Source: Phymorhynchus buccinoides (lineage: Eukaryota > Mollusca > Gastropoda > Neogastropoda > Raphitomidae). Taken from it: a stretch of 64,000 nucleotides of DNA. The stretch spans positions 46,414,548-46,478,547 of the forward strand of contig CM065700.1 of assembly GCA_017654935.2 (NCBI GenBank), written 5' to 3'. The position numbers and the translations under genes were made by a program. The notes under the pieces were generated by a model. It ran no database searches and was not told where the DNA came from. It saw only the letters and a program-made list of their open reading frames with translations. Below are positions 10,216 through 46,838 of the stretch, one piece after another (the first letter of the stretch is position 1; the number at the start of each line of letters is the position of its first letter).

Positions 10216-10715
10216 NNNNNNNNNNNNNNNNNNNNNNNNNNNNNNNNNNNNNNNNNNNNNNNNNNNNNNNNNNNNNNNNNNNNNNNNNNNNNNNNNNNNN
10301 NNNNNNNNNNNNNNNNNNNNNNNNNNNNNNNNNNNNNNNNNNNNNNNNNNNNNNNNNNNNNNNNNNNNNNNNNNNNNNNNNNNNNNNNNNNNNNNNNNNN
10401 NNNNNNNNNNNNNNNNNNNNNNNNNNNNNNNNNNNNNNNNNNNNNNNNNNNNNNNNNNNNNNNNNNNNNNNNNNNNNNNNNNNNNNNNNNNNNNNNNNNN
10501 NNNNNNNNNNNNNNNNNNNNNNNNNNNNNNNNNNNNNNNNNNNNNNNNNNNNNNNNNNNNNNNNNNNNNNNNNNNNNNNNNNNNNNNNNNNNNNNNNNNN
10601 NNNNNNNNNNNNNNNNNNNNNNNNNNNNNNNNNNNNNNNNNNNNNNNNNNNNNNNNNNNNNNNNNNNNNNNNNNNNNNNNNNNNNNNNNNNNNNNNNNNN
10701 NNNNNNNNNNNNNNN
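10216..10715. other. Assembly gap (500 N)
   Basis: Exactly 500 N, so its size is nominal. Open frames reported across it are meaningless. Confidence 1.
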
Positions 10716-10842: not shown

Positions 10843-12020
10843 CCAAAAGTAATTTCTAGAACTCCTATCCCTTACCCCTTGAACTTGAAGTACAACAGTT
10901 GGTGAAGCATTACCGTAATGTGAACTTGGCATTAAACTGTCACAATTTTTACGGGAATTTCCCATGGTTTACGGCAATACTGATTGGCGACTCTGCATTT
11001 AGAGGGTTTACGTTCGTTTTTCCTTGCTGCTTATTTTAATTTTCCAAACTTTCTGTAGAATGAAAATGATTCTTTGGTCTCTATATCAGTATATGTAGGT
11101 ATTCCAAAGGGGTTTTCAATAGTACATGCTGCACATTGTCTGTTGCTACAGTTTGATAGATCTTTTGATCCTGATTAATGTGATACCAGAAACAAGTCTG
11201 TGTTGTAAAAAATAAAAAAGTTATGACGTTTTTTTGTGATTTTTGGACTTAGAAAATTTTTGGGCAACATTTTTTTGCCATTTTCACTCACACACAGCAA
11301 AAAAAAAACAGAGATCTCAAAGTTCATGTTTTTAATCTTTATATACTGGTAATCAAACACACAAAATTTGTTGACATCAAATGCTTTACGAAAAAAAGTT
11401 GTAAATCTCCAAACTCGGTCGAAAATTAAGTTATTTCCACAGATTCTTGGAACAAAATCGCACAATGGGGGTATTTCAAAGGTCTGGTACACAGTTGTTT
11501 TCAGTACTATAACTACAAAATCTGGATTACAACTTTATAGTGATAAAGAGATTATGCTCAATTTTTTTCAGAACTCTGTGATAGTTACATCATACTGGTC
11601 CAATGAAAATGGTACATCATCGAATTTGAGCGCCTGGCCAAAAAGGATTAATTTTGAAGGTTTTTCAAATTGCTATATGACTTTGTCATTTTTAATGCTA
11701 TTGAGTTGTCCTTTATACCAGATTGTCAAGTTTTTAATGTTCTCTACTCTGAAAACAAGTAAAAGAGCTAAATTTACCAAACATATTTAAAATTTTAATG
11801 CTTTTGTTTACAAAAATATTCAAATTTGCATTTTTTTCACATTTTCGTCATTACATAAACATCTATATTTCAAGCATAAGGTGTGAAATATATGTCAAAT
11901 GTTCAGTTTATAAACTTCTCTTGATTGCAATTTACATAAAATAACAACAGAAACATACTTTTATCATTATAGGTATAGAGAATAAGGAAACCAGAAATCC
12001 AGCACAGTATCGGTTTCACT
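10843..12020. other. AT-rich repeat-unit DNA without a recognised gene (copy 1)
   Basis: This segment is shared by all four units (34,500-35,675; 42,870-44,070; 60,260-61,450). It contains a GAAGCATTACCGTAATGT motif at 10,905-10,922 and several short open frames. The longest, in copy 2 (35,026-35,442), is broken or shortened in the others, lacks family motifs and is poor in Ala/Gly, so I read it as non-coding AT-rich sequence. Confidence 0.6.
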
Positions 12021-12029
12021 CCTCTATTT

Positions 12030-12560
12030 ATTTAAAAACAACAAAAACACTACTTTTAGGGCGAAATAAAATAATTAAAAAAAAATCCGCCCCTTTACCT
12101 CCCATTTTAGATACAAAAACACTACTTTAAGGGTGAAAAAAAAGCAAATAATCAGACTTTTTAAACCCCATTTTAGATACAAAAACACTACTTTAAGGGG
12201 CAAAAAAGCAAGAAATCAGACTTTCCTTTATCCCGTCAATTAGGAGGAAAAAAACACTACTTTAAGGGGCAAAAAAGCAAGAAATCAGACTTTCCTTTAT
12301 CCCGTCAATTAGGAGGAAAGAAACACTACTTTTAGGGGCAAAAAAGCAAGAAATCAGACTTTCCTTTATCCCGTCAATTAGGAGGAAAAAAACACTACTT
12401 TTAGGGGGCAAAAAAAAGCAAAAAATCAGACTTTCCTTTATCCCGTCAATTAGGAGGAAAGAAACACTACTTTAAGGGGCAAAAAAGCAAGAAATCAGAC
12501 TTTCCTTTATCCCGTCAATTAGGAGGAAAGAAACACTACTTTTGGGGGCAAAAAAAAAAA
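12030..12560. repeat. 69-bp tandem array beside the element (copy 1)
   Basis: CCCGTCAATTAGGAGGAAA recurs at 12,232, 12,301, 12,370, 12,442 and 12,511 (69, 69, 72 and 69 bp). Three proximal units carry CCCATTTTAGATAC instead. Every unit holds AACACTACTTTAAGGGGC. It lies 0.5 kb outside the palindrome in all four copies. Confidence 0.92.
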
Positions 12561-13092
12561 AAGATAAAAAAAGAACGTCACCATAGAATGGGGAAATCCC
12601 GATTGAGTCATACTGTTAAACATAAGACGGAACAGGGAATTCCCGATTAAGTAGCCATCTATTTTAGGCAAATTAAACAGGGGATATAACTCAGACCTAA
12701 TGTTTTTAAATTTAAAAAGCGGGTTGTTTTATAAACTATTGTGGAAACTGAATAAAGACATTATTGTTTAGTTGTACTATTTCAGTATTTGATTAAAACT
12801 TTTAGAATAAAGAACTAAATAAGTTAAATTATTATTGTTTTGATCAAATAAATAACAAGTAAACCATCATAGATATTTTGCAAGATTTGTTAGTTATATA
12901 ATACTGTGTTTAGTAAAGGTGATTAGGTGTTTGTTTCCTTCCCTTATCTTACTCTTAGCGCAATCTCTACTCACTTTTAGCCTATTTCGTTTTGTACGTC
13001 TGTAAAAAGGGTCACTGGCACAGACGTAGGAAGATTGTTTAAATGGGGGTTCTAAAGTAAGAAAATAGAGTTAATGTAGTTAACAAACACCT

Positions 13093-13229
13093 AAAACTGT
13101 ACACAACTGACCTTGCTAACTCATCGCTAGTCCTTTGGATCTAGCTTGGGGTCCTATAGGGCCCGTGGGATCTCAAGTGAGATTCAGAGAACTGGTGGTG
13201 AGTTAGCAAGGTCAGATGAGCACAGTTTT
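13093..13229. repeat. 137-bp imperfect palindrome (hairpin) at the gene block's outer edge, copy 1
   Basis: Perfect 16-bp arms TGACCTTGCTAACTCA (13,108-13,123) and TGAGTTAGCAAGGTCA (13,199-13,214) enclose 75 bp that is itself partly self-complementary (TTGGATCTA..., GGTCC/GGGCC centre). Outside, AAAACTGT (13,093-13,100) pairs with ACAGTTTT (13,222-13,229). The whole could fold into one long stem. It could be a terminus, origin or resolution site of the neighbouring element; function is inference. It is GC-rich relative to the AT-rich flanks. Confidence 0.85.
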
Positions 13230-13660
13230 GCTATTTTTTTTATAAAACTTACTTTTTTTAAGTCACTTTTTTAAAACCTTAATTTTTATTTTTTTTGGTC
13301 CTTTTTTAAAACTTTTGGTTAAACTTTTTTTTATTTAAAAAAACCCCTTTTTTTTAAACATTAGTCACTTTTTAAAAAAAAACTTATTTTTTTGGTCCTT
13401 TTTTAACACTTGGTTAAACTTCTTTTTAAAAACATTTTAAGCAAAAAACAAACTTTTGGGCTTTTTTTAAAAGTTACTTTTAAGTTCTTTTTTAAGAAGT
13501 TAAGTTCTTTTTAAGTTATTTTTTAAGAAGTTACTATTTTATTTTTTAAAGTTCTTGCTAAGTCATCTTCAAGTCATTCTCAAGTATTTATTAAGTTCTT
13601 ACACAAAAACTTACTTAGTACTTATTAAGTTCTTATTAAGTTTTTATTATATTAAGTTTT
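13230..13660. repeat. AT-rich zone with 11-bp phased AAGT motifs (copy 1)
   Basis: AAGT starts at 13,549, 13,560, 13,571, 13,582 and 13,593, exactly 11 bp apart. Further in-phase pairs are at 13,471/13,482, 13,502/13,513 and 13,627/13,638. The outer part has long T and A runs and a duplicated TTGGTCCTTTTTTAA segment. The same zone recurs at 32,885-33,315, 45,241-45,690 and 58,665-59,089. Near-helical phasing suggests curved DNA or iterons. Confidence 0.7.
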
Positions 13661-14094
13661 CATTGCATTAAAAATGGATCGCTCTCAGGTTTTAAGCTTT
13701 TTGGTTTTTGTTTTTCTTGTTTGTTTGCTGCTTTTTCTGATTGTTTTGTTTGTACTTCTACTCGTTTTTTTTTTGGTTGCATGTGTGTTTTATATAATTT
13801 ATAAGACAAATAACCAACACCAGCAACCACACCAACAGTAAGCAATACAACATCGTAATTCGTACTGTTTTGTTTGTCTTCTTCTTTTTTAACTGGTATT
13901 GCGCTTATGGTTGATTCATCTTCATTCTGAGACAACAGTTTTTGTTTTGTTTGTTTATTCATTTTTTGTTGTCGATTCCACTCTGACAACCTTTTACCTG
14001 CTTCAACTCGTCCTGGGCTCTTCGTTACCTTGGTTGTCGGACTGGGGCTTGTTTGCTGCTCCGTCTGATTCGTTTGATTCTCTGTCACGTTCAT
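13660..14094 (-). CDS. Small single-pass membrane protein with basic tail (element gene a, copy 1)
   Basis: I start at the ATG at 14,094 rather than the ATG four codons upstream, because it begins the MNVTENQT segment found in every copy. The ~144-aa product has a polar Gln/Thr/Lys-rich N-terminal half (residues 1-78), one hydrophobic segment about residues 82-98 (VVLLTVGVVAGVGYLSY), and a Lys/Gln-rich tail. The tail contains PKKKRVEV, which resembles a nuclear localisation signal. It is the last leftward gene of the block and its 5' end overlaps gene b. I recognise no family. Only this copy keeps the long tail; the others stop soon after the membrane segment through an indel in an A run. Confidence 0.55.
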   Translation of the reverse strand: MNVTENQTNQTEQQTSPSPTTKVTKSPGRVEAGKRLSEWNRQQKMNKQTKQKLLSQNEDESTISAIPVKKEEDKQNSTNYDVVLLTVGVVAGVGYLSYKLYKTHMQPKKKRVEVQTKQSEKAANKQEKQKPKSLKPESDPFLMQ

Positions 14095-14549
14095 TTTTAA
14101 TAGCAATAAAATCTATATGATTAAAAGTAATTAACCCCATGACAACAGGTGATAAAAGCCCGCCAAACCTATAAAAAAGATCACAACTAAGAGACTCTAA
14201 CGATTTAATTAAAACAGGATCTTGACTTAAATCGTACATTAAATCTTGGCTTGAATCGAGTGGGAAAAAACTGACTAACTAACTTAGTGTACAAGCTTAA
14301 CACTGTTAGACCTAAACTTTTAACCATTTTAGATCCTAATTGTGCTTCGTATCTGTTGTAGTACTTTTCAATGTCAGCAGAAGACATTACTTGAATCTGT
14401 TCTATACTAAATTCTGTTCCTAAGTATTGCTTTGTTTTTCCACACGCAGCCAGAGAATACAACTTTTCCTTTTTATTCATAACACTTGTCGACACTTCAT
14501 CAGAAATTACTGCTTCCTGCGCATTTAACAACAGTTCGTCACAATTCAT
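14003..14549 (-). pseudogene. Element gene b, frame-broken (copy 1)
   Basis: The first open part (14,205-14,549, 114 aa) begins MNCDELLLNAQEAV and contains a helical stretch with EQIQVMSSADIEKYYNRYEA, which I associate with conserved small proteins of Polinton-like elements. A second open part in another frame (14,003-14,239, 78 aa) carries a hydrophobic segment (LLSPVVMGLITF) and probably belonged to the same gene. The switch lies near a T run at about 14,270. The start at 14,549 is only 37 bp from the divergent gene c, with AT-rich DNA between, so the two probably share a promoter. Function is unknown. Confidence 0.55.
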
Positions 14550-14586
14550 TTTTAGTTGATTTATTATTTTTATTTTAAAAACAAAA
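14550..14586. promoter_or_regulatory. Divergent intergenic region, probable shared promoter (copy 1)
   Basis: Only 37 bp of A/T (with TTTATTATTTTTATTTTA) separate the start codons of leftward gene b and rightward gene c. Any promoter for either gene must lie here or inside the opposite gene. Promoter function is inferred from layout alone. Confidence 0.35.
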
Positions 14587-14826
14587 ATGAGTGCTGAAAA
14601 AACTGTTGCTAACCTTGTATATCAATCTGCTCTGATTGGTGGACTTTCTGTTGCGTACACGATGGTTGGTAAGAAACTATTGAAAATGAAAGCTGCTGAC
14701 CTTGGAAAACTTGACCTAGAGCCAGTAGAGGACTCTGGTAAACTAATCGCGGTAATCACTGCTTCAATCGCAACAAAAGACTTTTTAGTTAAACAAGGAA
14801 TAATTCCAGAAAATATAAATATCTAA
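14587..14826 (+). CDS. Small two-helix membrane protein (element gene c, copy 1)
   Basis: The 79-aa product begins MSAEKTVANLVYQSALIGG. It has two hydrophobic segments, about residues 11-30 and 51-64, joined by a charged loop (KKLLKMKAADLGKLDLEPVEDSGK). It is identical in copy 2. Copies 3 and 4 share a short deletion near codon 13 that shifts the frame. It lies in tight tandem with gene d (7 bp apart). I recognise the type as a recurrent small ORF of Polinton-like elements but know no assigned function; a virion membrane component is one possibility. Confidence 0.6.
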   Translation: MSAEKTVANLVYQSALIGGLSVAYTMVGKKLLKMKAADLGKLDLEPVEDSGKLIAVITASIATKDFLVKQGIIPENINI

Positions 14827-14833
14827 AAATAAA

Positions 14834-15139
14834 ATGGCTTCACTCGCAATGATGATTGGCGGTGCTGTAGTAAACGCACTTGCTTTTTCAGGTAGTAATT
14901 ACATGTTTAGTAAGCTAGAAACAAACACGGAAAGACAAAGACATAATCGAGCAATGGAGCAATTAGCAGCAGCACAAGACGCTTATGAAAAACAAAGACT
15001 CGCTCAGTTAGATTTCATTAACAACAAATTAAAACTGCAAAACCATGCAGCCTACACTTTTAAGAATGTTGACGACGCTATTAAAGAGTATTATTTAGTG
15101 ACAGGAGAAGAAATAGTTCAGTTACCACCACCGAAATGA
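14834..15139 (+). CDS. Membrane-anchored coiled-coil protein (element gene d, copy 1)
   Basis: The 101-aa product starts MASLAMMIGGAVVNALAFSG, a hydrophobic Ala/Gly-rich N-terminus (residues 2-19) that may be a membrane anchor. From about residue 28 to 68 an Arg/Lys/Glu/Gln/Ala-rich helix follows (ERQRHNRAMEQLAAAQDAYE), likely a coiled coil. The end is Pro-rich (QLPPPK). All four copies keep this frame intact with one Thr/Lys difference at codon 32. Its stop overlaps the ATG of the next short ORF (ATGA, 15,136-15,139), typical of compact viral gene blocks. Function is not known to me. Confidence 0.65.
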   Translation: MASLAMMIGGAVVNALAFSGSNYMFSKLETNTERQRHNRAMEQLAAAQDAYEKQRLAQLDFINNKLKLQNHAAYTFKNVDDAIKEYYLVTGEEIVQLPPPK

Positions 15140-15227
15140 AGCGACTTCCGAAAAACAAAAACTCCAGGAAATAGCATTTATTGTAGTTGGTATGACTGCT
15201 GTTTATTTTATCGCGAAAAACGTGTAG
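15136..15227 (+). pseudogene. Tiny membrane-peptide ORF, frame-broken (element gene e)
   Basis: An ATG overlapping the stop of gene d starts MKRLPKNKNSRK and then stops. The other frame encodes a short hydrophobic segment (IAFIVVGMTAVYFIA) ending in TAG at 15,225-15,227. I infer one ~30-residue single-pass peptide gene broken at an A run. The same break exists in the other copies, so it predates the duplications or is a shared homopolymer miscall. Confidence 0.4.
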
Positions 15228-15257
15228 TATTAAAATAAATAATAAATTTATTATTCA

Positions 15258-16205
15258 CCAAAAGGTTATTGGAAAGGGTTAACTGCTATTCAAAAATTAA
15301 ATCAAGCTGCTGGAGTCACTGAACAAACGGCAAAAGAATGGCTATCTAAACAAGCTATTTGGCAAATCTATTTACCAGCGCCTAATCGAATTAAAAGACC
15401 GCACTTTGTCAACTCAACACCAAATGACACTCATCAAATGGATCTTCTATACCTCCCTCATGATTTATTCAGAAGAAAAAGATTTAAATACGCGCTTACA
15501 GTTGTTAACATCTCTTCAAGATATAAAGATGCTGAACCATTGTCTGATAAAAGTGCTACTTCAGTCTCTGTCGCTTTACAAGAAATCTATAGACGCGGTC
15601 CATTAACTTATCCACGTTTAATTCAAGTTGATGAAGGAAAATAATTTAAAGGACAATTCAATCAGCTACTGTTAAAACACAAAGTCGCTATTAAAAGGGG
15701 TATTCCTGGAAACCATAGATCTCAGGCTTTAGTTGAAAACTTTAACAAACAATTGGCAGAAAGACTTTTCTCTTATCAATACCATAGAGAACTCCTTGAT
15801 TCAACTAGAAACACTGAATGGGTTAGAAGACTGCCCTCCGTTCTGCGTGTCATGAATAACGAAGAATCTAAGGTCATTGGACTCCGACCAGTAAAAGCAA
15901 TACAGAAGAAAACAATTGACTTGCCAATTCAACATTCAATTACAAAACAACTAATACCATTTGGAGTAAAAGTAAGATTTCTTTATGCACCTGGAGAAGC
16001 AGAAGGAGACACTCGCATAAGAGCAACAGATCCAATTTGGAGCATTGATCCGTACGAAATAAAAAGAATAATAGAAATGAATCCTCCCGTGTATTATTTA
16101 AGAGAAACTGATACGACAAACCATATGGCACGACCTACACCGCAAAGAGTATTTGTTAAAGAAGAACTGCAGATAATCCCATCAGATACAGTTCCTATCA
16201 TTTGA
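15258..16205 (+). pseudogene. Retroviral-type (rve) integrase, Polinton-like, with internal stop (copy 1)
   Basis: One frame runs 948 bp from PKGYWKGL at 15,258 to TGA at 16,203-16,205, interrupted only by TAA at 15,642-15,644. The N-terminal part has an AIQKLNQAAGV/WLSKQAIWQIYLP helical segment. The catalytic triad is visible: Asp in HQMDLLYLPHD (15,441), Asp in LIQVDEGK (15,630) and Glu in QALVENFN (15,735), 35 residues on, a DD35E layout. The C-terminal part (PFGVKVRFLYAPGEAEGD, then IDPYEIKRI) looks like a small SH3-like tail. Such enzymes insert Polinton/Maverick and adintovirus-type DNA into host chromosomes. No in-frame ATG precedes it here. The stop four codons after the second Asp removes the catalytic Glu, so this copy is dead unless read through. 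rve assignment is firm; the Polinton link is inferred from the neighbours. Confidence 0.85.
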
Positions 16206-16302
16206 TTAATCTAAAAAATCGAAGATAAATTTGTTAGACTTTTAACAATTCCAAAAAAAAAAAAAAAAGTCCTTACAGACACTTCTTTTTTTTTTTCTTC
16301 TT
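16206..16302. terminator. Convergent gene junction with A16 and T12 runs (copy 1)
   Basis: The 3' ends of the integrase and the ATPase face each other across 97 bp. That spacer holds an A run (about 16,253-16,268) and a T run (about 16,285-16,296), which could serve as 3'-end signals for both strands. The same arrangement occurs in all copies with variable run length. Confidence 0.4.
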
Positions 16303-16917
16303 TCATAAGCATTTGTACTGACTAGGAAAATCTGTTTTTAATACTAGTTTACAAAATTTCTCTTTTCTTAGCTTTTGTTTAATTTTAGTTTTTTCTTCTT
16401 TTGATTCAACATCATTTTCATCAAGACACTCATCAAAGCTGTTTTTGTCTTTAGTAAAAAACAAAACAACTGTCTTTAACTGTTCTCTAAAGTCTTTTAA
16501 AACCGAGTTATACTTCTGAGTTAAAATCCATACGCTAATTCCTGCATGCCGACCACTGAATGCTAGTTTTGCTAAACTATTTCTTTTTTGGACAATGTCT
16601 CTTTCAGCTGAGCAATCAATGATAAACAAAGTTGGTGTTCCTTTAAACAGTTTATAAAAATACTCTAAACATTCGCTTAGTTTATTACTTGGATTGACTA
16701 AATAGATTTCGTCATCTGTCCAAATAAGCTTTCTTTCTTTATAAGATTTGTTGTATTCTAAAGTAGTACAAAAAATTACTATGTGTTCAAAGTGATTACG
16801 ATAAACTGTTAGGATTAAATCTAAAGCGAACACACTTTTCCCGCAGCCTGTCATTCCGCAAAATAAACCACAATGAGGTTCTTTTGTAAGAAAATTTAAA
16901 TTAGTCTTCAAATCCAT
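16303..16917 (-). CDS. A32/FtsK-like genome-packaging ATPase (copy 1)
   Basis: The 204-aa frame is intact from ATG 16,917 to TGA 16,303. Walker A is GMTGCGKS (residues 21-28). Walker B is TLFIIDCS (96-103), with a single Asp where copy 3 has two. LAFSGRHAG and VWILTQKY follow, the latter resembling the sensor/arginine region of the FtsK-HerA superfamily. Length and motif order fit the short packaging ATPases of Polintons, adintoviruses and virophages, which drive DNA into capsids. The gene is convergent with the integrase and forms the inner edge of the block. The end is Lys/Glu-rich (about 168-190). A different P-loop NTPase cannot be excluded, but pairing with an rve integrase supports this call. 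Confidence 0.75.
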   Translation of the reverse strand: MDLKTNLNFLTKEPHCGLFCGMTGCGKSVFALDLILTVYRNHFEHIVIFCTTLEYNKSYKERKLIWTDDEIYLVNPSNKLSECLEYFYKLFKGTPTLFIIDCSAERDIVQKRNSLAKLAFSGRHAGISVWILTQKYNSVLKDFREQLKTVVLFFTKDKNSFDECLDENDVESKEEKTKIKQKLRKEKFCKLVLKTDFPSQYKCL

Positions 16918-16978
16918 TATTTTAATACACGATATCTTTTAATCTGTTGTCTTCAATGTTCAGCTGAGCATCAAATTA

Positions 16979-17030
16979 TCCTGGAGGCAATGCCCGGAGG
17001 CAGTGCAACTCCAGGAAAGTCCCGAATTTA
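16979..17030 (+). repeat. 52-bp motif at the inner edge of the gene block (copy 1)
   Basis: It begins CCTGGAGG and ends CCTTTCC-complement (CCAGGAAAGTCCCGAATTTA). CCTGGAG and CTCCAGG form a 7-bp inverted pair around GCAATGCCCGGAGGCAGTGC. A related copy (about 41 of 53 positions by eye) lies ~8 kb away in the same unit (37,487-37,535 in copy 2), in the same orientation. It may mark an element border. Confidence 0.5.
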
Positions 17031-29582: not shown

Positions 29583-29643
29583 TAATTTGATGCTCAGCTG
29601 AACATTGAAGACAACAGATTAAAAGATATCGTGTATTAAAATA

Positions 29644-30254
29644 ATGGATTTGAAGACTAATTTAAATTTTCTTACAAAAGAACCTCATTGTGGATTATTT
29701 TGCGGAATGACAGGCTGCGGAAAAAGTGTGTTCGCTTTAGATTTAATCCTAACAGTTTATCGTAATCACTTTGAACACATAGTAATTTTTTGTACTACTT
29801 TAGAATACAACAAATCTTATAAAGAAAGTTTATTTGGACAGATGATGAAATCTATTTAGTCAATCCAAGTAATAAACTAAGCGACTGTTTAGAGTATTTT
29901 TATAAACTGTTTAAAGGAACACCAACTTTGTTTATCATTGATTGCTCAGCTGAAAGAGACATTGTCCAAAAAAGAAATAGTTTAGCAAAACTAGCATTCA
30001 GTGGTCGGCATGCAGGAATTAGCGTATGGATTTTAACTCAGAAGTATAACTCGGTTTTAAAAGACTTTAGAGAACAGTTAAAGACAGTTGTTTTGTTTTT
30101 TACTAAAGACAAAAACAGCTTTGATGAGTGTCTTGATGAAAATGATGTTGAATCAAAAGAAGAAAAAACTAAAATAAAACAAAGACTAAGAAAACAGAAA
30201 TTTTGTAAACTAGTATTAAAAACAGATTTTCCTAGTCAGTACAAATGCTTATGA
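29644..30254 (+). pseudogene. A32-like packaging ATPase, frameshifted (copy 2)
   Basis: Walker A is intact, but a 4-bp deletion after AAAGAAAG (about 29,825) shifts the frame and ends it at 29,859. The Walker B half is open again from 29,928 to 30,254. Copy 3 has the same deletion; copies 1 and 4 do not. Confidence 0.75.
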
Positions 30255-30351
30255 AAGAAGAAAAAAAAAAAGAAGTGTCTGTAAGGACTTTTTTTTTTTT
30301 TTTTGGAATTGTTAAAAGTCTAACAAATTTATCTTCGATTTTTTAGATTAA

Positions 30352-31299
30352 TCAAATGATAGGAACTGTATCTGATGGGATTATCTGCAGTTCTTCTTTA
30401 ACAAATGCTCTTTGCGGTGTAGGTCGTGCCATATGGTTTGTCGTATCAGTTTATCTTAAATAATACACGGGAGGATTCATTTCTATTATTCTTTTTATTT
30501 CGTACGGATCAATGCTCCAAATTGGGTCTGTTGCTCTTATGCAAGTGTCTCCTTCTGCTTCTCCAGGTGCATAAAGAAATCTTACTTTTACTCCAAATGG
30601 TATTAGTTGTTTTGTAATTGAATGTTGAATTGGCAAGTCAATTGTTTTCTTCTGTATTGCTTTTACTGGTCGGAGTCCAATGACCTTAGATTCTTCGTTA
30701 TTCATGACACGCAGAACGGAGGGCAGTCTTCTAACCCATTCAGTGTTTCTAGTTGAATCAAGGAGTTCTCTATGGCATTGATAAGAGAAAAGTCTTTCTG
30801 CCAATTGTTTGTTAAAGTTTTCAACTAAAGCCTGAGATCTATGGTTTCCAGGAATACCCCTTTTAATAACGACTTTGTGTTTTAACAGTAGCTGATTGAA
30901 TTGTCCTTTAAATTATTTTCCTTCATCAACTTGAATTAAACGAGGATAGGTTAATGGACCGCGTCTATAGATTTCTTGTAAAGCGACAGAGACTGAAGTA
31001 GCACTTTTATCAGACAATGGTTCAGCATCTTTATATCTTGAAGAGATGTTAACAACTGTAAGCGCGTATTTAAATCTTTTTCTTCTGAATAAATCATGAG
31101 GGAGGTATAGAAGATCCATTTGATGAGTGTCATTTGGTGTTGTGTTGACAAAGTGCGGTCTTTTAATTCGTTTAGGCGCTGGTAAATAGATTTGCCAAAT
31201 AGCTTGTTTAGATAGCCATTCTTTTGCTGTTTGTTCAGTGACTCCAGCAGCTTGATTTAATTTTTGAATAGCAGTTAAACCTTTCCAATAACCTTTTGG
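30352..31299 (-). pseudogene. rve integrase with two internal stops (copy 2)
   Basis: The stop after the second catalytic Asp is as in copy 1. A further stop after NPPVYYLR (about 30,451) is shared only with copy 4. An ATG at about 31,322 precedes the gene but in another frame. Confidence 0.85.
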
Positions 31300-31417
31300 T
31301 GAATAATAAATTTATTATTCATTTTAATACTACACGTTTTTCGCGATAAAATAAACAGCAGTCATACCAACTACAATAAAAGCTATTTCCTGGAGTTTTT
31401 GTTTTTCGGAAGTCGCT

Positions 31418-31723
31418 TCATTTCGGTGGTGGTAACTGAACTATTTCTTCTCCTGTCACTAAATAATACTCTTTAATAGCGTCGTCAACATTCTTAAAAG
31501 TGTAGGCTGCATGGTTTTGTAGTTTTAATTTGTTGTTAATGAAATCTAACTGAGCGAGTCTTTGTTTTTCATAAGCGTCTTGTGCTGCTGCTAATTGCTC
31601 CATTGCTCGATTATGTCTTTGTCTTTCCTTGTTTGTTTCTAGCTTACTAAACATGTAATTACTACCTGAAAAAGCAAGTGCGTTTACTACAGCACCGCCA
31701 ATCATCATTGCGAGTGAAGCCAT
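31418..31723 (-). CDS. Element gene d, membrane-anchored coiled coil (copy 2)
   Basis: Intact 101-aa frame with Lys at codon 32. Confidence 0.65.
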   Translation of the reverse strand: MASLAMMIGGAVVNALAFSGSNYMFSKLETNKERQRHNRAMEQLAAAQDAYEKQRLAQLDFINNKLKLQNHAAYTFKNVDDAIKEYYLVTGEEIVQLPPPK

Positions 31724-31730
31724 TTTATTT

Positions 31731-31970
31731 TTAGATATTTATATTTTCTGGAATTATTCCTTGTTTAACTAAAAAGTCTTTTGTTGCGATTGAAGCAGTG
31801 ATTACCGCGATTAGTTTACCAGAGTCCTCTACTGGCTCTAGGTCAAGTTTTCCAAGGTCAGCAGCTTTCATTTTCAATAGTTTCTTACCAACCATCGTGT
31901 ACGCAACAGAAAGTCCACCAATCAGAGCAGATTGATATACAAGGTTAGCAACAGTTTTTTCAGCACTCAT
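31731..31970 (-). CDS. Element gene c, two-helix membrane protein (copy 2)
   Basis: Intact 79-aa frame, identical to copy 1. Confidence 0.6.
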   Translation of the reverse strand: MSAEKTVANLVYQSALIGGLSVAYTMVGKKLLKMKAADLGKLDLEPVEDSGKLIAVITASIATKDFLVKQGIIPENINI

Positions 31971-32007
31971 TTTTGTTTTTAAAATAAAAATAAAAAATCA
32001 ACTAAAA

Positions 32008-32490
32008 ATGAATTGTGACGAACTGTTGTTAAATGCGCAGGAAGCAGTAATTTCTGATGAAGTGTCGACAAGTGTTATGAATAAAAAGGAAAAGTTGTAT
32101 TCTCTGGCTGCGTGTGGAAAAACAAAACAATACTTAGGAACAGAATTTAGTATAGAACAGATTCAAGTAATGTCTTCTGCTGACATTGAAAAGTACTACA
32201 ACAGATACGAAGCACAATTAGGATCTAAAATGGTTAAAAGTTTAGGTCAAACAGTGTTAAGCTTGTACACTAAGTTAGTTAGTCAGTTTTTTTCCACTCG
32301 ATTCAAGCCAAGATTTAATGTACGATTTAAGTCAAGATCCTGTTTTAATTAAATCGTTAGTCTCTTAGTTGTGATCTTTTTTATAGGTTTGGCGGGCTTT
32401 TATCACCAGTTGTCATGGGGTTAATTACTTTTAATCATATAGATTTTATTGCTATTAAAAATGAACGTGACAGAGAATCAAACGAATGAG
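32008..32490 (+). pseudogene. Element gene b, frame-broken (copy 2)
   Basis: The first part is open to 32,352 with Gln instead of Leu in KSLGQTVLS. The C-terminal part has an additional 2-bp loss near 32,360 (AATCGTTAGTCTC), also seen in copy 3. Confidence 0.5.
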
Positions 32491-32787
32491 ACGGAGCAGC
32501 AAACAAGCCCCAGTCCGACAGTAACCAAGAGCCCAGGACGAGTTGAAGCAGGTAAAAGGTTGTCAGAGTGGAATCGACAACAAAGAATGAATAAACAAAC
32601 AAAACAAAAACTGTTGTCTCAGAATGAAGATGAATCAACCATAAGCGCAATACCAGTTAAAAAAGAAGAAGACAAACAAAACAGTACGAATTACGATGTT
32701 GTATTGCTTACTGTTGGTGTGGTTGCCGGTGTTGGTTATTTGTCTTATAAATTATATAAAACACACATGCAAAAAAAAACCGAGTAG
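32461..32787 (+). CDS. Element gene a, short form (copy 2)
   Basis: The membrane segment is present and the frame ends soon after (HMQKKTE). The Lys-rich tail lies downstream in another frame. Confidence 0.5.
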   Translation: MNVTENQTNETEQQTSPSPTVTKSPGRVEAGKRLSEWNRQQRMNKQTKQKLLSQNEDESTISAIPVKKEEDKQNSTNYDVVLLTVGVVAGVGYLSYKLYKTHMQKKTE

Positions 32788-32884
32788 AAGTACAAACAAA
32801 ACGATCAGAAAAAGCAGCAAACAAACAAGAAAGCCTAAAACCAAAAAGCTTAAAACCTGAGAGCGATCCATTTTTAATGCAATG

Positions 32885-33315
32885 AAAACTTAATATAATA
32901 AAAACTTAATAAGAACTTAATAAGTACTAAGTAAGTTTTTGTGTAAGAACTTAATAAATACTTGAGAATGACTTGAAGATGACTTAGCAAGAACTTTAAA
33001 AAATAAAATAGTAACTTCTTAAAAAATAACTTAAAAAGAACTTAACTTCTTAAAAAAGAACTTAAAAGTAACTTTTAAAAAAAGCCCAAAAGTTTGTTTT
33101 TTGCTTAAAATGTTTTTAAAAAGAAGTTTAACCAAGTGTTAAAAAAGGACCAAAAAAATAAGTTTTTTTTTAAAAAGTGACTAATGTTTAAAAAAAAGGG
33201 GTTTTTTTAAATAAAAAAAAGTTTAACCAAAAGTTTTAAAAAAGGACCAAAAAAAATAAAAATTAAGGTTTTAAAAAAGTGACTTAAAAAAAGTAAGTTT
33301 TATAAAAAAAATAGC
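32885..33315. repeat. AT-rich zone with 11-bp phased ACTT motifs (copy 2)
   Basis: Reverse-complement copy with the same spacing. Confidence 0.65.
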
Positions 33316-33452
33316 AAAACTGTGCTCATCTGACCTTGCTAACTCACCACCAGTTCTCTGAATCTCACTTGAGATCCCACGGGCCCTATAGGACCCCAAG
33401 CTAGATCCAAAGGACTAGCGATGAGTTAGCAAGGTCAGTTGTGTACAGTTTT
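33316..33452. repeat. 137-bp palindrome (copy 2)
   Basis: The 16-bp arms are at 33,331-33,346 and 33,422-33,437. The length equals that of the other copies. Confidence 0.85.
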
Positions 33453-33989
33453 AGGTGTTTGTTAACTACATTAACTCTATTTTCTTACTTTAGAACCCCC
33501 ATTTAAACAATCTTCCTACGTCTGTGCCAGTGACCCTTTTTACAGACGTACAAAACGAAATAGGCTAAAAGTGAGTAGAGATTGCGCTAAGAGTAAGATA
33601 AGGGAAGGAAACAAACACCTAATCATCTTTACTAAACACAGTATTATATAACTAACAAATCTTGCAAAATATCTATGATGGTTTACTTGTTATTTATTTG
33701 ATCAAAACAATAATAATTTAACTTATTTAGTTCTTTATTCTAAAAGTTTTAATCAAATACTGAAATAGTACAACTAAACAATAATGTCTTTATTCAGTTT
33801 CCACAATAGTTTATAAAACCCGCTTTTTAAATTTAAAAACATTAGGTCTGAGTTATATCCCCTGTTTAATTTGCCTAAAATAGATGGCTACTTAATCGGG
33901 AATTCCCTGTTCCGTCTTATGTTTAACAGTATGACTCAATCGGGATTTCCCCATTCTATGGTGACGTTCTTTTTTTATCTTTTTTTTTT

Positions 33990-34485
33990 TTTGCCCCCAA
34001 AAGTAGTGTTTCTTTCCTCCTAATTGACGGGATAAAGGAAAGTCTGATTTCTTGCTTTTTTGCCCCTTAAAGTAGTGTTTCTTTCCTCCTAATTGACGGG
34101 ATAAAGGAAAGTCTGATTTCTTGCTTTTTTGCCCCTTAAAGTAGTGTTTTTTTCCTCCTAATTGACGGGATAAAGGAAAGTCTGATTTCTTGCTTTTTTG
34201 CCCCTTAAAGTAGTGTTTCTTTCCTCCTAATTGACGGGATAAAGGAAAGTCTGATTTCTTGCTTTTTTGCCCCTTAAAGTAGTGTTTTTTTCCTCCTAAT
34301 TGACGGGATAAAGGAAAGTCTGATTTCTTGCTTTTTTGCCCCTTAAAGTAGTGTTTTTGTATCTAAAATGGGGTTTAAAAAGTCTGATTATTTGCTTTTT
34401 TTTCACCCTTAAAGTAGTGTTTTTGTATCTAAAATGGGGTAAAGGAGCGGATTTTTTTGCCCCTAAAAGTAGTGTTTTTGTTGTT
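33990..34485. repeat. 69-bp tandem array (copy 2)
   Basis: Five CCTCCTAATTGACGGG units then two or three CATTTTAGATAC-type units (as complement). C/T at one position alternates between units. Confidence 0.9.
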
Positions 34486-35678
34486 TTTAAATAAATAGAG
34501 GAGTGAAACCGATACTGTGCTGGATTTCTGGTTTCCTTATTCTCTATACCTATAATGATAAAAGTATGTTTCTGTTGTTATTTTATGTAAATTGCAATCA
34601 AGAGAAGTTTATAAACTGAACATTTGACATATATTTCACACCTTATGCTTGAAATATAGATGTTTATGTAATGACGAAAATGTGAAAAAAATGCAAATTT
34701 GAATATTTTTGTAAACAAAAGCATTACAATTTTAAATATGTTTGGTAAATTTAGCTCTTTTACTTGTTTTTAGAGTAGAGAACATTAAAAACTTGACAAT
34801 TTGGTATAAAGGGCAACTCAATAGCATTAAAAATGACAGTCATAGCAATTTGAAAAACCTTAAAAATTGATCGTTTTTGGCCAGGCGCTCAAATTCGATG
34901 ATGTACCATTTTCATTGGACCAGTATGATTTAACTATCACAGAGTTCTGAAAAAAATTGAGCATAATCTCTTTATCACTATAAAGTTGTAATCCAGATTT
35001 TGTAGTTATAGTACTGAAAACAACTGTGTACCAGACCTTTGAAATACCCCCATTGTGCGATTTTGTTCCAAGAATCTGTGGAAATAACGTAATTTTCGAC
35101 CGAGTTTGGAGATTTACAACTTTTTTTCGTAAAGCATTTCATGTCAACAAATTTTGTGTGTTTGATTACCAGTATATAAAGATTAAAAACCTGAACTTTG
35201 AGATCTCTGTGACTTTACGTTTTTTGCTGTGTGCGAGTGAAAATGGCAAAAACATTTTGCCCAAAAATTTTCTAAGTCCAAAAATCACAAAAAACTTCAT
35301 AACTTTTTTATTTTTTACCACACAGACTTGTTTTTGGTATCACATTAATCAGGATCAAAAGATCTATCAAACTGTAGCAACAGACAATGTGCAGCATGTA
35401 TTATCGAAAACCCCTTTGGAATACCTACATATACTGATATAGAGACCAAAGAATCATTTTCATTCTACAGAAAGTTTGGAAAATTAAAATAAGCAGCAAG
35501 GAAAAACGAACGTAAACCCTCTAAATGCAGAGTCGCCAATCAGTATTGCCGTAAACCATGGGAAATTCCCGTAAAAATTGTGACAGTTTAATGCCAAGTT
35601 CACATTACGGTAATGCTTCACCCAACTGTTGTACTTCAAAGTTCAAGGGGTAAGGGATAGGGTTAGAATTACTTTTGT

Positions 35679-38500: not shown

Positions 38501-39000
38501 NNNNNNNNNNNNNNNNNNNNNNNNNNNNNNNNNNNNNNNNNNNNNNNNNNNNNNNNNNNNNNNNNNNNNNNNNNNNNNNNNNNNNNNNNNNNNNNNNNNN
38601 NNNNNNNNNNNNNNNNNNNNNNNNNNNNNNNNNNNNNNNNNNNNNNNNNNNNNNNNNNNNNNNNNNNNNNNNNNNNNNNNNNNNNNNNNNNNNNNNNNNN
38701 NNNNNNNNNNNNNNNNNNNNNNNNNNNNNNNNNNNNNNNNNNNNNNNNNNNNNNNNNNNNNNNNNNNNNNNNNNNNNNNNNNNNNNNNNNNNNNNNNNNN
38801 NNNNNNNNNNNNNNNNNNNNNNNNNNNNNNNNNNNNNNNNNNNNNNNNNNNNNNNNNNNNNNNNNNNNNNNNNNNNNNNNNNNNNNNNNNNNNNNNNNNN
38901 NNNNNNNNNNNNNNNNNNNNNNNNNNNNNNNNNNNNNNNNNNNNNNNNNNNNNNNNNNNNNNNNNNNNNNNNNNNNNNNNNNNNNNNNNNNNNNNNNNNN
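38501..39000. other. Assembly gap (500 N) at the centre of palindrome 2/3
   Basis: The left contig ends in ACCAAAATAAAG, whose complement lies at about 40,010-40,021. So at least ~1 kb present on the right (39,001-40,010) has no visible mirror on the left. Confidence 1.
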
Positions 39001-39530: not shown

Positions 39531-40498
39531 CTCAACCTTGGTACAGGAAGGGTCAACTTTTTTATTTTTTAAGAAGAACACTAGTTTTGCGTATTCCGCC
39601 ATCTTGAAACTGAGTGAAAGGTAGAACCCCACTTCGCTAAGGCCATAGTTACGACTAAGGCTCCTTTTTTAAAGCATCGTTCAAGTAAGAAACTTTTCTT
39701 GACAATTCTTCAAAAATACTAGAGTAAAACAATACAAAATAGATAAAACAAATATTTATTTTTCCTAGCAACGACATTGCATGACAGCGCATGCGCAAAT
39801 ATCCGAAGTATGAGAAGAATTCAAAAGATTACTTCCGGCGAATTCTTTACACGAGCGACCTATTTTCATACGACAGGTGTTACATCGAAGCCTGTCCGAC
39901 ATGTTGTTTTCTGTCATGCTCACGTTGTTGTTGCGATCTTGTGAGTCGCACAAAAAGCTTAGGCCTAATCTGTCTAATGTTTTGGGTTGATGTTGCCCCT
40001 TTGAATAAGCTTTATTTTGGTACTAATGTTTTGTTTATTGGTAAAAAAAATAAATAAAGTTATGGCTGTTTTATTCATCCAAACCATGATACAGTAACAT
40101 TTTAAAAACGTCGTAACTTTCTCATTTTCGAGCCGATTTTGATAATTTGGGTATCATTTTGATTTTAAAGGTCTTGTCGGGCTCTTTCCAATGACAAATT
40201 TCATTAGGATTTCACAAAAAGTAAATATTTTTTAAAATTTTATGACCATCCTACATTACGGTAATGCCTCGTCGAGCAGCTTTAGTTTCTTAAAATAGAT
40301 TTACTAGCGCAACGCCTAGTACCGGAAATACTGAGTACCGGTAATACCTAGTACCGGTAATGCTGAGCAGCAGTTTTTTTGGGTCCACGAAATATAACTT
40401 TTGTGTCTCTCCTTCTTTCCATCTCTCCTTCTTTCCTTCTCTCCTTCTTTCCTTCTCTCCTTCTTTCCATCTTTTTCTCTCATCCTGCTGTACCCCCT

Positions 40499-40764
40499 GT
40501 CGTATGCAAAAAAAGTAGCATCATCGTGTAAATTCTTCGCTCGCTACTATGAGTTAGCATTTGCGACATTAAGTATGAACATAATTTCACTTTTTCCGTA
40601 TTTGAAACACTTTTCCGTACTCAAATCGTTCATATTTCATGACATTATCATGATTATGGAAAAAAGTTAAATTTTAAAAAAATCGTTCAATGTCGCAAAT
40701 GCTAAGTCTCATAGTAGCGAGCGAAGTATTTACACAATGCTATTTTTTTTGGTTGCATATGACA
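40499..40764. mobile_element. 266-bp MITE (copy 3)
   Basis: Same termini as copy 2, inverted. Confidence 0.75.
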
Positions 40765-40998
40765 CCCCTCACCGCACCCCCTCACCCGCCCTCCCATCCC
40801 ACCCCCACCCATCCGTTGTTACTTTTGTGTCTCCTTCCTTGGATCTTCTTCTCTCATTGCGTTCTACTCCCCACCGCACACCCCCATCAACCATCCCACC
40901 CATCCCCACCCATCCCCACCCTATTCATGAAGAAGAAGAAAATATAGGGTCTTTCGGCCATGTGGGGCATTTGATTTTGTAAATACAAAGATGGTGGG

Positions 40999-41050
40999 CC
41001 AGGGAACAATACCGGAGGCAGTGCTAAACCAGTAAAGTCCCGATTTTTTA
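40999..41050 (+). repeat. Diverged edge motif, distal copy (copy 3)
   Basis: CCAGGGAACAATACCGGAGG...GTAAAGTCCCGATTTTTTAA. Confidence 0.45.
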
Positions 41051-41287
41051 ATAATACAGATATATGTAGTAGTAACCACGCCTCGGAGAAACCTCATTGG
41101 CTATGGTACTACCACACGTATAGGTACTCTTAAACCCCAACCTCCTACTTCTCACCCCCACCCCATACACACAGGCACACGAACGTCAATGAGCTCTCTC
41201 TCTCTCTCTGGCTCTCTCTCTGTGTTTATTAGTATGGGCCGGAGACATTTTCTCGAACGTAGGTACACACGGTTTGCTGCGTTCTAC

Positions 41288-41311
41288 TCCCCCCCCCCCC
41301 CCCCCCAGTCA

Positions 41312-41402
<91 letters not shown>
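41288..41402. repeat. C run and (CT)n microsatellite (copy 3)
   Basis: The CT run is interrupted once (CCTAT, about 41,368) unlike the other copies. Confidence 0.95.
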
Positions 41403-41405
<3 letters not shown>

Positions 41406-41499
41406 TTACACTGTGTTAAAAATAGGTGCAGCTCGCAGCACACTCTGACTAGTTGTTGACGCTTCGCTGGCAGCAGGTGTCATGTGTTGGTTGAAATTA

Positions 41500-41935
41500 G
41501 GATCCTGCGCAAATGTAAATCGGGTTATAGCGTGCGGTTATGAACGGATGCTGTTGAAAGTTTGCACCAAGATAGTCACTATCTCTGGTCATTGCACATT
41601 CCAAATTTCGAATCAATGTCGGGTCTGGTTACGCCGCGGTTTGTGAAAAGGTTAAGCGGCGTAAGTTATATCGCTCGTGTTTCTGAATCGATTCGCTTCC
41701 GGTTTGGCACATCGATAGTCACCGTCCCCGGTCATGTACCTGCCAAATTTGAAGGCAATCGGTCCATAAATACCAGAGATACGGGCGCCGAGAGGCCGGC
41801 GGATACGCGTTTCGCGCATTTGCCAAAAAACCGCGCATATGAGACGGCCGCCTCGGTAGCCGTTGCCATCGCCCCATTAGGGCTCACAGCAAATTTGAAG
41901 CGATTCGGTCGAAAAACGGCGGAGTTATAAGGCCT
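41500..41935. repeat. GC-rich degenerate repeats (copy 3)
   Basis: Inverted relative to copy 2, with small indels. Confidence 0.5.
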
Positions 41936-42010
41936 GTTTTGTGTTTCAGACACACACACACACACGGACACTTGGCTTTTATAACTTCATTTGGACAAAA
42001 GTAATCTTTC

Positions 42011-42043
<33 letters not shown>

Positions 42044-42489
42044 CCCATCTTCTGGGCTGTACAGTGGCGTTGCTCCCACGCCGCTCGTTCCGAATCCCAA
42101 TTCGCAGCTACACCCGGGTTTGTTCAAGTCGCAGAAACCGAGACCAGCAGTCCAAGGGGAGATAATCTATGTTAGGCCGTCAGGAGGCAACCAACCGAGG
42201 AGACACTGCACTTCTGCTGAGTCACTTCGGTGGAGTTCAGTGGAGCCTGTTCAGGACACCACCTACTAAGCCCCCTACTGACGACACTATTCTCTTAGTC
42301 GCGGAGCCAGCGTGAGTGAGGTCCTCCTCCGAGGGCGCCACCACGACCGTCCACCGACAGCTCCCCAGAACACACTGATCCCCATGACTTTGACCCGAAC
42401 GCACCAAGGCATAGACTGGATTGGAAACCGAAACTGAGGTCACCATGAGAGCAGGGCATGCAAAGCCACAGAATTTGAGACATTTTTTT

Positions 42490-42867
42490 TCTTTTTCATG
42501 ATTGATGGAAAATGAGGCGGATGATGATGATGATGCTATGGAGTTCCTTATCGGTCTGAGACTGCATGACAGGGCTGTATTCTACGCTTCCTTTCATAAT
42601 GATATCCCGGCGTTAACCAGACCCGAGAACTACAGACACCTGCAGTGTTGGTCTTGCAATTAGAGCAACACTCTCAGAATTGCATCCGTTAAGCGGATGA
42701 AACTCGACTGTGTGGTTTCAGTCTTCCCATTGAGCCCATAGCCACTCACTAGCTCTGGGTAGGAGTCGGTCCAGGACCGAAAAAACCCTCGCCTCTGATG
42801 GGATTCGAACCCAAGACCTCCCAGCCAGTAGTCCCCGACGCTAACCACTACACCACGGCGGCTGGTC
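42490..42867 (-). repeat. tRNA-derived SINE (copy 3)
   Basis: Full length, with both pol III boxes present. Confidence 0.85.
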
Positions 42868-44084
42868 ACAAAAAGTAATTCTAACCCTATCCCTTACCCC
42901 TTGAACTTTGAAGTACAACAGTTGGGTGAAGCATTACCGTAATGTGAACTTGGCATTAAACTGTCACAATTTTTACGGGAATTTCCCATGGTTTACGGCA
43001 ATACTGATTGGCGACTCTGCATTTAGAGGGTTTACGTTCGTTTTTCCTTGCTGATTATTTTAATTTTCCAAACTTTCTGTAGAATGAAAATGATTCTTTG
43101 GTCTCTATATCAGTATATGTAGGTATTCCAAAGGGGTTTTCGATAATACATGCTGCACATTGTCTGTTGCTACAGTTTGATAGATCTTTTGATCCTGATT
43201 AATGTGATACCAAAAACAAGTCTGTGTGGTAAAAAATAAAAAAGTTATGAAGTTTTTTGTGATTTTTGGACTTAGAAAATTTTTGGGCAACATTTTTTTG
43301 CCATTTTCACTCGCACACAGCAAAAACACGTAAAGTCACAGAGATCTCAAAGTTCAGGTTTTTAATCTTTATATACTGGTAATCAAACACACAAAATTTG
43401 TTGACATGAAATGCTTTACGAAAAAAAGTTGTAAATCTCCAAACTCGGTCAAAAATTACGTTATTTCCACAGATTCTTGGAACAAAATCGCACAATGGGG
43501 GTATTTCAAAGGTCTGGTACACAGTTGTTTTCAGTACTATAACTACAAAATCTGGATTACAACTTTATAGTGATAAAGAGATTATGCTCAATTTTTTTCA
43601 GAACTCTGTTTGTGATAGTTACATCATACTGGTCCAATGAAAATGGTACATCATCGAATTTGAGCGCCTGGCCAAAAAGGATCAATTTTGAAGGTTTTTC
43701 AAATTGCTATAACTTTGTCATTTTTAATGCTATTGAGTTGCCCTTTATACCAAATTGTCAAGTTTTTAATGTTCTCTACTCTGAAAACAAGTAAAAGAGC
43801 TAAATTTACCAAACATATTTAAAATTTTAATGCTTTTTTTTACAAAAATATTCAAATTTGTATTTTTTTTCACATTTTCGTCATTACATAAACATCTATA
43901 TTTCAAGCATAAGGTGTGAAATATATGTCAAATGTTCAGTTTATAAACTTCTCTTGATTGCAATTTACATAAAATAACAACAGAAACATACTTTTATCAT
44001 TATAGGTATAGAGAATAAGGAAACCAGAAATCCAGCACAGTATCGGTTTCACTCCTCTATTTATTTAAAAACAACAAAAACACT

Positions 44085-44565
44085 ACTTTTAGGGGCAAAA
44101 AAATCCGCTCCTTTACCCCATTTTAGATACAAAAACACTACTTTAAGGGTGAAAAAAAAGCAAAAAATCAGACTTTTTAAACCCCATTTTAGATACAAAA
44201 ACACTACTTTAAGGGGCAAAAAAGCAAGAAATCAGACTTTCCTTTATCCCGTCAATTAGGAGGAAAAAACACTACTTTAAGGGGCAAAAAAGCAAGAAAT
44301 CAGACTTTCCTTTATCCCGTCAATTAGGAGGAAAGAAACACTACTTTTAAGGGGCAAAAAAGCAAGAAATCAGACTTTCCTTTATCCCGTCAATTAGGAG
44401 GAAAAAAACACTACTTTAAGGGGCAAAAAAGCAAGAAATCAGACTTTCCTTTATCCCGTCAATTAGGAGGAAAGAAACACTACTTTAAGGGGCAAAAAAG
44501 CAAGAAATCAGACTTTCCTTTATCCCGTCAATTAGGAGGAAAGAAACACTACTTTTGGGGGCAAA
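44085..44565. repeat. 69-bp tandem array (copy 3)
   Basis: Same organisation as copy 1, one proximal unit shorter. Confidence 0.9.
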
Positions 44566-45103
44566 AAAAAAAAAAGATAAAAAAAGAACGTCACCATAGA
44601 ATGGGGAAATCCCGATTGAGTCATACTGTTAAACATAAGACGGAACAGGGAATTCCCGATTAAGTAGCCATCTATTTTAGGCAAATTAAACAGGGGATAT
44701 AACTCAGACCTAATGTTTTTAAATTTAAAAAGCGGTTGTTTTATAAACTATTGTGGAAACTGAATAAAGACATTATTGTTTAGTTGTACTATTTCAGTAT
44801 TTGATTAAAACTTTTAGAATAAAGAACTAAATAAGTTAAATTATTATTGTTTTAATCAAATAAATAACAATTAAACCATCATAGATATTTTGCAAGATTT
44901 GTTAGTTATATAATACTGTGTTTAGTAAAGATGATTAGGTGTTTGTTTCCTTCCCTTATCTTACTCTTAGCGCAATCTCTACTCACTTTTAGCCTATTTC
45001 GTTTTGTACGTCTGTAAAAAGGGTCACTGGCACAGACGTAGGAAGATTGTTTAAATGGGGTTCTAAAGTAAGAAAATAGAGTTAATGTAGTTAACAAACA
45101 CCT

Positions 45104-45240
45104 AAAACTGTACACAACTGACCTTGCTAACTCATCGCTAGTCCTTTGGATCTAGCTTGGGGTCCTATAGGGCCCGTGGGATCTCAAGTGAGATTCAGAG
45201 AACTGGTGGTGAGTTAGCAAGGTCAGATGAGCACAGTTTT
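45104..45240. repeat. 137-bp palindrome (copy 3)
   Basis: The 16-bp arms are at 45,119-45,134 and 45,210-45,225. Confidence 0.85.
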
Positions 45241-45690
45241 GCTATTTTTTTTATAAAACTTACTTTTTTTAAGTCACTTTTTTAAAACCTTAATTTTTAT
45301 TTTTTTTGGTCCTTTTTTAAAACTTTTGGTTAAACTTTTTTTTATTTAAAAAAACCCCTTTTTTTTAAACATTAGTCACTTTTTAAAAAAAAACTTATTT
45401 TTTTGGTCCTTTTTTAACACTTGGTTAAACTTCTTTTTAAAAACATTTTAAGCAAAAAACAAACTTTTGGGCTTTACTTTTTAAACAGTTACTTTTAAGT
45501 TCTTTTTTAAGAAGTTAAGTTAAGTTCTTTTTAAGTTATTTTTTAAGAAGTTACTATTTTTATTTTTAAGTTCTTGCTAAGTCATCTTCAAGTCATTCTC
45601 AAGTATTTATTAAGTTCTTACACAAAAACTTACTTAGTACTTATTAAGTTCTTATTAAGTTTTTATTATATTAAGTTTTCATTGCATTAA
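45241..45690. repeat. AT-rich 11-bp comb zone (copy 3)
   Basis: As in copy 1, with a few indels in T runs. Confidence 0.65.
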
Positions 45691-46103
45691 AAATGGATCG
45701 CTCTCAGGTTTTAAAGCTTTTTGGTTTTAGGCTTTCTTGTTTGTTTGCTGCTTTTTCTGATCGTTTTGTTTGTACTTCTACTCGGTTTTTTTTTGCATGT
45801 GTGTTTTATATAATTTATAAGACGAATAACCAACACCGGCAACCACACCAACAGTAAAATACAACATCGTAATTCGTACTGTTTTGTTTGTCTTCTTCTT
45901 TTTTAACTGGTATTGCGCTTATGGTTGATTCATCTTCATTCTGAGACAACAGTTTTTGTTTTGTTTGTTTATTCATTCTTTGTTGTCGATTCCACTCTGA
46001 CAACCTTTTACCTGCTTCAACTCGTCCTGGGCTCTTGGTTACTTGTCGGACTGGGGCTTGTTTGCTGCTCCGTCTCATTCGTTTGATTCTCTGTCACGTT
46101 CAT
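45691..46103 (-). pseudogene. Element gene a, frame-broken (copy 3)
   Basis: Indels upstream of the conserved KSPGRVEAGKRLSEW block (about 46,045) and in the membrane segment (about 45,855) split the frame. Confidence 0.5.
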
Positions 46104-46556
46104 TTTTAATATCAATAAAATCTATATGATTAAAAGTAATTAACCCCGCAACAACTGGTGATAAAAGCCCTCCAAACCTATAAAAAAGATCACAACTAAG
46201 AGACTAACGATTTAATTAAAACAGGATCTTGACTTAAATCGTACATTAAATCTTGGCTTGAATCGAGTGGAAAAAAACTGACTAACTAACTTAGTGTACA
46301 AGCTTAACACTGTTAGACCTAAACTTTTAACCATTTTAGATCCTAATTGTGCTTCGTATCTGTTGTAGTACTTTTCAATGTCAGCAGAAGACATTACTTG
46401 AATCTGTTCTATACTAAATTCTGTTCCTAAGTATTGCTTCATTTTTCCGCACGCAGCCAGAGAATACAACTTTTCCTTTTTATTCATAACACTTGTCGAC
46501 ACTTCATCATAAATTACTGCTTCCTGCGCATTTAACAACAGTTCGTCACAATTCAT
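46080..46556 (-). pseudogene. Element gene b, frame-broken (copy 3)
   Basis: The first 114 codons are open (46,212-46,556). The 2-bp loss near 46,205 is shared with copy 2. Confidence 0.5.
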
Positions 46557-46593
46557 TTTTAGTTGATTTTTTATTTTTATTTTAAAAACAAAA

Positions 46594-46831: not shown

Positions 46832-46838
46832 AAATAAA

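Follow-up and report, generated by a model that had tools for sequence, protein, structure and literature searches.

The window analysed here is a stretch of 64,000 nucleotides on contig C21 (CM065700.1) of the Phymorhynchus buccinoides genome (2.12 Gb, 3,962 contigs). At positions 11977-16972 of its forward strand it contains a compact unit with genes for an integrase, an A32-like packaging ATPase and several small membrane proteins. This unit is very probably the integrase-side end of a Polinton/Maverick element of about 14.6 kb, which was truncated in its capsid gene and then passively quadrupled together with the surrounding DNA. A previous sequence-only reading had placed the unit at 13093-17030 and had proposed either a novel short element depending on a helper or a deletion derivative whose missing half should exist elsewhere in the genome. 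The latter was supported, and both boundaries had to be moved, to a terminal repeat at 11977 on the left and to a break at 16972 on the right.

The truncation was recognised by comparison with relatives of the unit elsewhere in the genome (loci are numbered with L, contigs with C). The search for longer relatives, which had been suggested together with the first reading, yielded 841 candidates for the ATPase gene. The best 150 of these were scored, all being at least 91% identical to the query, and 20 loci from 20 contigs were picked from them by hand (91-98% identical to the ATPase of the window). All 20 run past the point equivalent to position 16972, and a capsid gene ends upstream of the ATPase gene in every case, at a distance of at most about 140 bp. 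Linkage to polymerase-like frames was seen in L029, L031, L032 and L047, and to a partial one in L033. In the window, the major capsid protein gene is reduced to its final 16 codons at 16925-16972 on the reverse strand (tblastn, 100% over residues 423-438). The right end at 16972 is a break inside the capsid gene and no terminus. A tblastn comparison of eight open reading frames (ORFs) of the longer copies (polymerase-like, capsid and others) with the window gave these last 16 capsid residues only (E<0.01). The claim that the unit contains neither polymerase nor capsid is therefore correct for the polymerase-like frames, while for the capsid 16 codons remain.

The four copies and the ends of the unit

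Inverted duplications make up much of the window, and the unit is therefore present in four copies. Besides copy 1 (11977-16972, forward strand), copy 2 (29589-34545, reverse), copy 3 (44010-49041, forward) and copy 4 (55355-60319, reverse) showed 0.93%, 1.41% and 0.81% substitutions compared to copy 1, and the distances among all four range from 0.53% to 1.41%. A self-comparison revealed one long palindrome at 10716-35809 (98.7% over 25 kb, centre near 23262) and more copies of the duplicated segment at 40010-52034 and 52034-64000. The second inverted pair meets near 52034 and is devoid of the GC-rich centre of the first palindrome. These nested inverted duplications (10716-35809 and 40010-64000) comprise an ampliconic structure that is either real or partly made by the assembly.

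Such an arrangement could also be explained by an assembly artefact, in which a full-length copy was mis-joined at 16972 and the palindromes were created by the assembler. Large near-perfect inverted repeats and two gaps of 500 N nearby (10216-10715 and 38501-39000) would be in line with this. However, there is no gap at 16972, and the copies share an identical junction although they are 0.5-1.4% apart by substitutions, so that an artefact appears improbable.

A 381-bp probe spanning the break at 16972/16973 gave 973 candidate places in the genome, the best 40 of which were scored. Four of them span the break and correspond to the copies in the window; the remaining 36 comprise the element side only and start within 4 bases of the break. 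Since all four window copies have both the integrase stop described below and the exact junction at 16972, and since the junction was found only in the window among these 40 places, the fragment most likely arose once and was later copied along with its neighbourhood. All that lay past the final 16 capsid codons, the second terminal repeat among it, would be missing from the window copy; inverted duplication of the host segment would then have multiplied the fragment passively to four copies.

The left terminal repeat (11977-12057, forward strand) starts with AGAGAATAAGG, contains CAGTATCGGTTTCACTCC and resembles the termini of other copies, with a match of 82.7% over 12007-12057. It begins with AGAGAA and runs into GGTTTC repeats; starts with AGAGAAC were read in other copies. 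Probes of the terminal repeat matched only the left end of each copy in the window (E<=1e-7). If the unit were an independent short element mobilised by a helper, this would account for the compact gene block, the terminal repeat at one side and the several open genes. Nonetheless, such an element is very unlikely, as no second terminal repeat was found, the break lies inside a capsid gene, three genes carry inactivating lesions, and the junction is restricted to the linked copies of the window among the best 40 of the 973 candidates.

Further features were observed at the left end. The terminal repeats (L010-L023 and 11977-12057 of the window) vary in the number of GGTTTC units, giving them a telomere-like look, and this number is unequal between the two ends of the copy on C11. 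A subterminal minisatellite with a unit of 69 bp occupies 12041-12555 and has matches also in L009, L020, L022, L023, L024 and L027. At 13093-13229, a near-perfect palindrome of 137 bp could fold into a hairpin, with -38.1 kcal/mol calculated for single-stranded DNA (z -7.96). A hairpin of 81% identity is present in the older copy L025 (L025:5677-5878); the remaining 19 sampled loci, of which several end short of that region, gave no match.

Genes of the truncated unit

All ORFs were found at the positions given by the sequence-only reading: leftward 13660-14106 and 14205-14549, rightward 14587-14826, 14834-15139 and 15246-16205, and leftward 16303-16917 for the ATPase. The seven tightly packed genes read from them are present as ORFs, but not as seven intact genes, since genes b and d are frameshifted and the integrase gene contains a stop.

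The assignment of the integrase to the rve (DD35E) type was confirmed with an intact relative, the copy in the window (15246-16205, forward strand) being interrupted at 15642-15644 by a stop in frame. The piece at 15438-15644 matched rve with an E-value of 0.0032, which does not reach the cut-off, and the piece at 15753-16205 gave no Pfam match. The intact integrase of L020 (327 amino acids, aa), in contrast, matched PF00665 (rve) with E=1.6e-10 and shows 34 residues from the second D to the E, which corresponds to DD35E. The integrase frame of L021 (C13) stops at the same residue as that of the window; given this, the stop may predate the truncation. The identification of the A32-like packaging ATPase (16303-16917, reverse strand, frame open) also held, with a match to Pox_A32 (PF04665) of E=6.5e-10 and 39.3 bits compared to the Pfam cut-off of 22.8.

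Gene a (13660-14106, reverse strand) has an open frame with one hydrophobic segment and comprises 146-149 aa in six of the nine relatives whose frames were listed, while it is shorter in L012, L019 and L026. Gene b (14003-14549, reverse strand) is broken into the overlapping frames 14205-14549 and 14003-14239. A single frame of 182 aa was found for it in five of the nine (L012, L019, L020, L021 and L024), L026 showed 175 aa, and in L013, L022 and L025 it is shorter or split. Gene c (14587-14826, forward strand) encodes a small hydrophobic protein in an open frame, with 74-76 aa in relatives. Gene d (14834-15227, forward strand) is broken as well: its frame 1 stops at 15139, and the C-terminal membrane segment lies in another frame. 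Seven of the nine relatives comprise gene d as a single frame of 134 aa, while L025 and L026 are longer owing to upstream predicted starts. Six of seven database homologues retrieved have both parts (134-141 aa), the seventh, P0324, being a different gene model; one match is labelled Nucella lapillus. Since genes b and d are split in the window, the "tiny membrane peptide", previously regarded as a gene of its own, is the tail of gene d. A programmed frameshift in genes d/e was ruled out, because relatives have both parts in one frame. An open frame of 70 aa between ATPase and integrase was observed in three of the nine listed loci (L022:2656-2868, L024:2660-2872 and L026:2669-2881) and is missing in the window.

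Selection was estimated by the method of Nei and Gojobori between main-subfamily copies and the older L025/L026, with 4-8 pairs per gene and chosen open frames only; the values therefore describe other copies of the family and not the window locus. Between the subfamilies, dN/dS was 0.54 for gene a, 0.24 for b, 0.22 for c, 0.17 for d, 0.11 for the integrase and 0.05 for the ATPase. Within the main subfamily, gene a showed 0.83 and is accordingly weakly constrained at best. The small genes a-d are genuine genes, as had been proposed, and they belong to the full-length element. Based on their hydrophobic segments, their products are probably virion or assembly proteins. The discovery of the capsid gene upstream of the ATPase gene led us to drop another reading, a filamentous-phage-like element of membrane proteins.

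Retention of the block for a host function, i.e. domestication, could be supported by the ATPase frame, which is open in two of the four window copies. Since this frame is shortened in copies 2 and 3 and the integrase and genes b and d are broken, such a role is hardly credible. Due to these three broken genes and the loss of the remainder, the window copy should be inert.

The full-length family and its two gene orders

A full-length element was found on C27 (L011, L047 and L048) at 42508100-42522712, with a length of 14,613 bp and inverted terminal repeats of 255 bp at 95% identity, ending in AGAGAACG...CGTTCTCT. The copy on C11 has terminal repeats of 177 bp at 93%; no target duplication was seen for this copy, one end of which is devoid of the outermost bases. 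The family shows the rve DD35E integrase (in L020), the A32-like ATPase, a double-jelly-roll major capsid protein and inverted terminal repeats starting with 5'-AG, as described for Polintons. In the full element, the integrase would insert linear DNA through the terminal repeats, a family-B polymerase would copy the element DNA, and the A32-like ATPase would package it into the double-jelly-roll capsid, a life cycle that we infer.

The family is abundant in the genome. Besides the ATPase candidates, 839 candidates were obtained for the capsid, the best 98 of which were scored (at least 95% identical to the query). A stop-free ATPase was found in 143 of the 150 scored places and a stop-free capsid in 94 of 98, whereby both lists favour the best copies. 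Among the sampled loci, L009, L015, L016 and L024 showed interrupted or short capsid frames, and in L023 only residues 397-438 are present because of a run of N. Three scans of viral contigs gave no relatives of the element.

Several observations speak against the interpretation as the end of a complete Polinton. The flanks of the C27 element, the sole one with both complete ends readable, share 5 bp (AAACT) compared to the usual target-site duplication of 6 bp. We take P0241/P0242 to be the polymerase on account of motifs found by eye (DFES, HNLRGYD, DANNLYG, NNSCFGK and YTDTDSF, exonuclease and polymerase), and searches of Pfam, PHROGs, NCBIfam and PDB sequences with the linked frames gave no polymerase match. 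PDB sequence searches with P0242 and the capsid alignment yielded nothing useful. Among the remaining frames, no convincing match to a protease or penton was obtained in Pfam, PHROGs or NCBIfam; P0245 may resemble a Polinton minor capsid protein. Since the best 40 of 973 junction candidates were scored, a rare second instance of the break is possible. Finally, several sampled relatives are incomplete: L027 is rearranged, L017 and L028 are cut short, and others contain interrupted genes. The possibility raised at the outset, that all relatives are ordinary full-length Polintons and the unit a random fragment, largely applies to the 20 sampled loci, although not all of them are complete.

Two gene orders were observed. 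In form A, found in 16 of the 20 sampled loci and in the window, the integrase and the ATPase are arranged tail-to-tail, while in form B (L011, L014, L015 and L016) the ATPase runs directly into a terminal repeat. On the far side of L011 (C27), the terminal repeat is followed by genes a and b leftward, genes c and d and the integrase rightward, and then the polymerase-like frames. Accordingly, forms A and B differ by an inversion of the polymerase-to-ATPase segment; form B was read across both ends in C27 only, and for L014, L015 and L016 the polymerase side was deduced from the ATPase side. An integrase-less deletion derivative as the origin of form B was ruled out for C27 by the integrase at the polymerase end. 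In the ATPase tree of the 20 loci, the four form-B loci group with L010, which has form A, in a clade with a support of 0.93, most inner nodes being weaker. In the capsid tree (17 of the 20 loci; L009, L015 and L023 dropped) both forms are mixed. Since the one clade includes L010 and the capsid tree is mixed, a single origin of form B is not claimed. We consider it somewhat more likely than not that one family in one genome comprises two gene-order isomers, both of which have spread. Flips of this kind, which may proceed via the inverted terminal repeats, could then be a common way in which gene order changes in Polintons.

Comparison with known systems and significance

The kinship with Polintons and adintoviruses was well read from the raw sequence. 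The family shares with Polintons/Mavericks the rve integrase, the A32-like ATPase, the double-jelly-roll capsid, polymerase-like frames, 5'-AG inverted terminal repeats and the length of about 14.6 kb, whereas the window copy differs as a one-ended fragment. According to the available part of a study on vertebrate Mavericks (PMC8097293), these comprise 12.7-24.6 kb, include (AG)3 or (AGT)2 among their end motifs and differ in module orientation between some host species. The two-module order given there is unlike that of the present family, in which the integrase block lies beside the ATPase in 16 of 20 loci and beside the polymerase in the one form-B element read. The highest count noted there is 287, compared to 841 ATPase candidates here (150 scored). 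The titles and abstract openings listed in literature searches contain no description of this family or of two orders in one genome, which is weak evidence of absence.

Adintoviruses and "meldviruses" likewise combine, within a single element, an rve integrase with polymerase-like frames and a packaging ATPase, a likeness in gene content. In the part of a preprint available (PMC11071296), Meld23486 combines poxvirus-like capsid genes with a polymerase and an integrase that resemble those of adintoviruses, and an OTU-like domain of the polymerase and a chromodomain of the integrase are named. The capsid model of the present family, too, scores highest against capsids of large DNA viruses. Virophages (mavirus, Sputnik) are different, as their structural match is weaker than that of large DNA viruses and the family here is multicopy in animal chromosomes.

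Altogether, a candidate for a new kind of mini-element is removed, because the missing capsid and polymerase result from truncation. More interesting than the fragment is its parent family, for which hundreds of candidate copies, frames that are mostly open among the best matches, and two gene orders were found. This Polinton family is abundant in the genome of an animal, its best-scoring copies are little degraded, and six genes show dN/dS below 0.6 between subfamilies; virion production, recent spread and gene-order change thereby become directly testable in this host.

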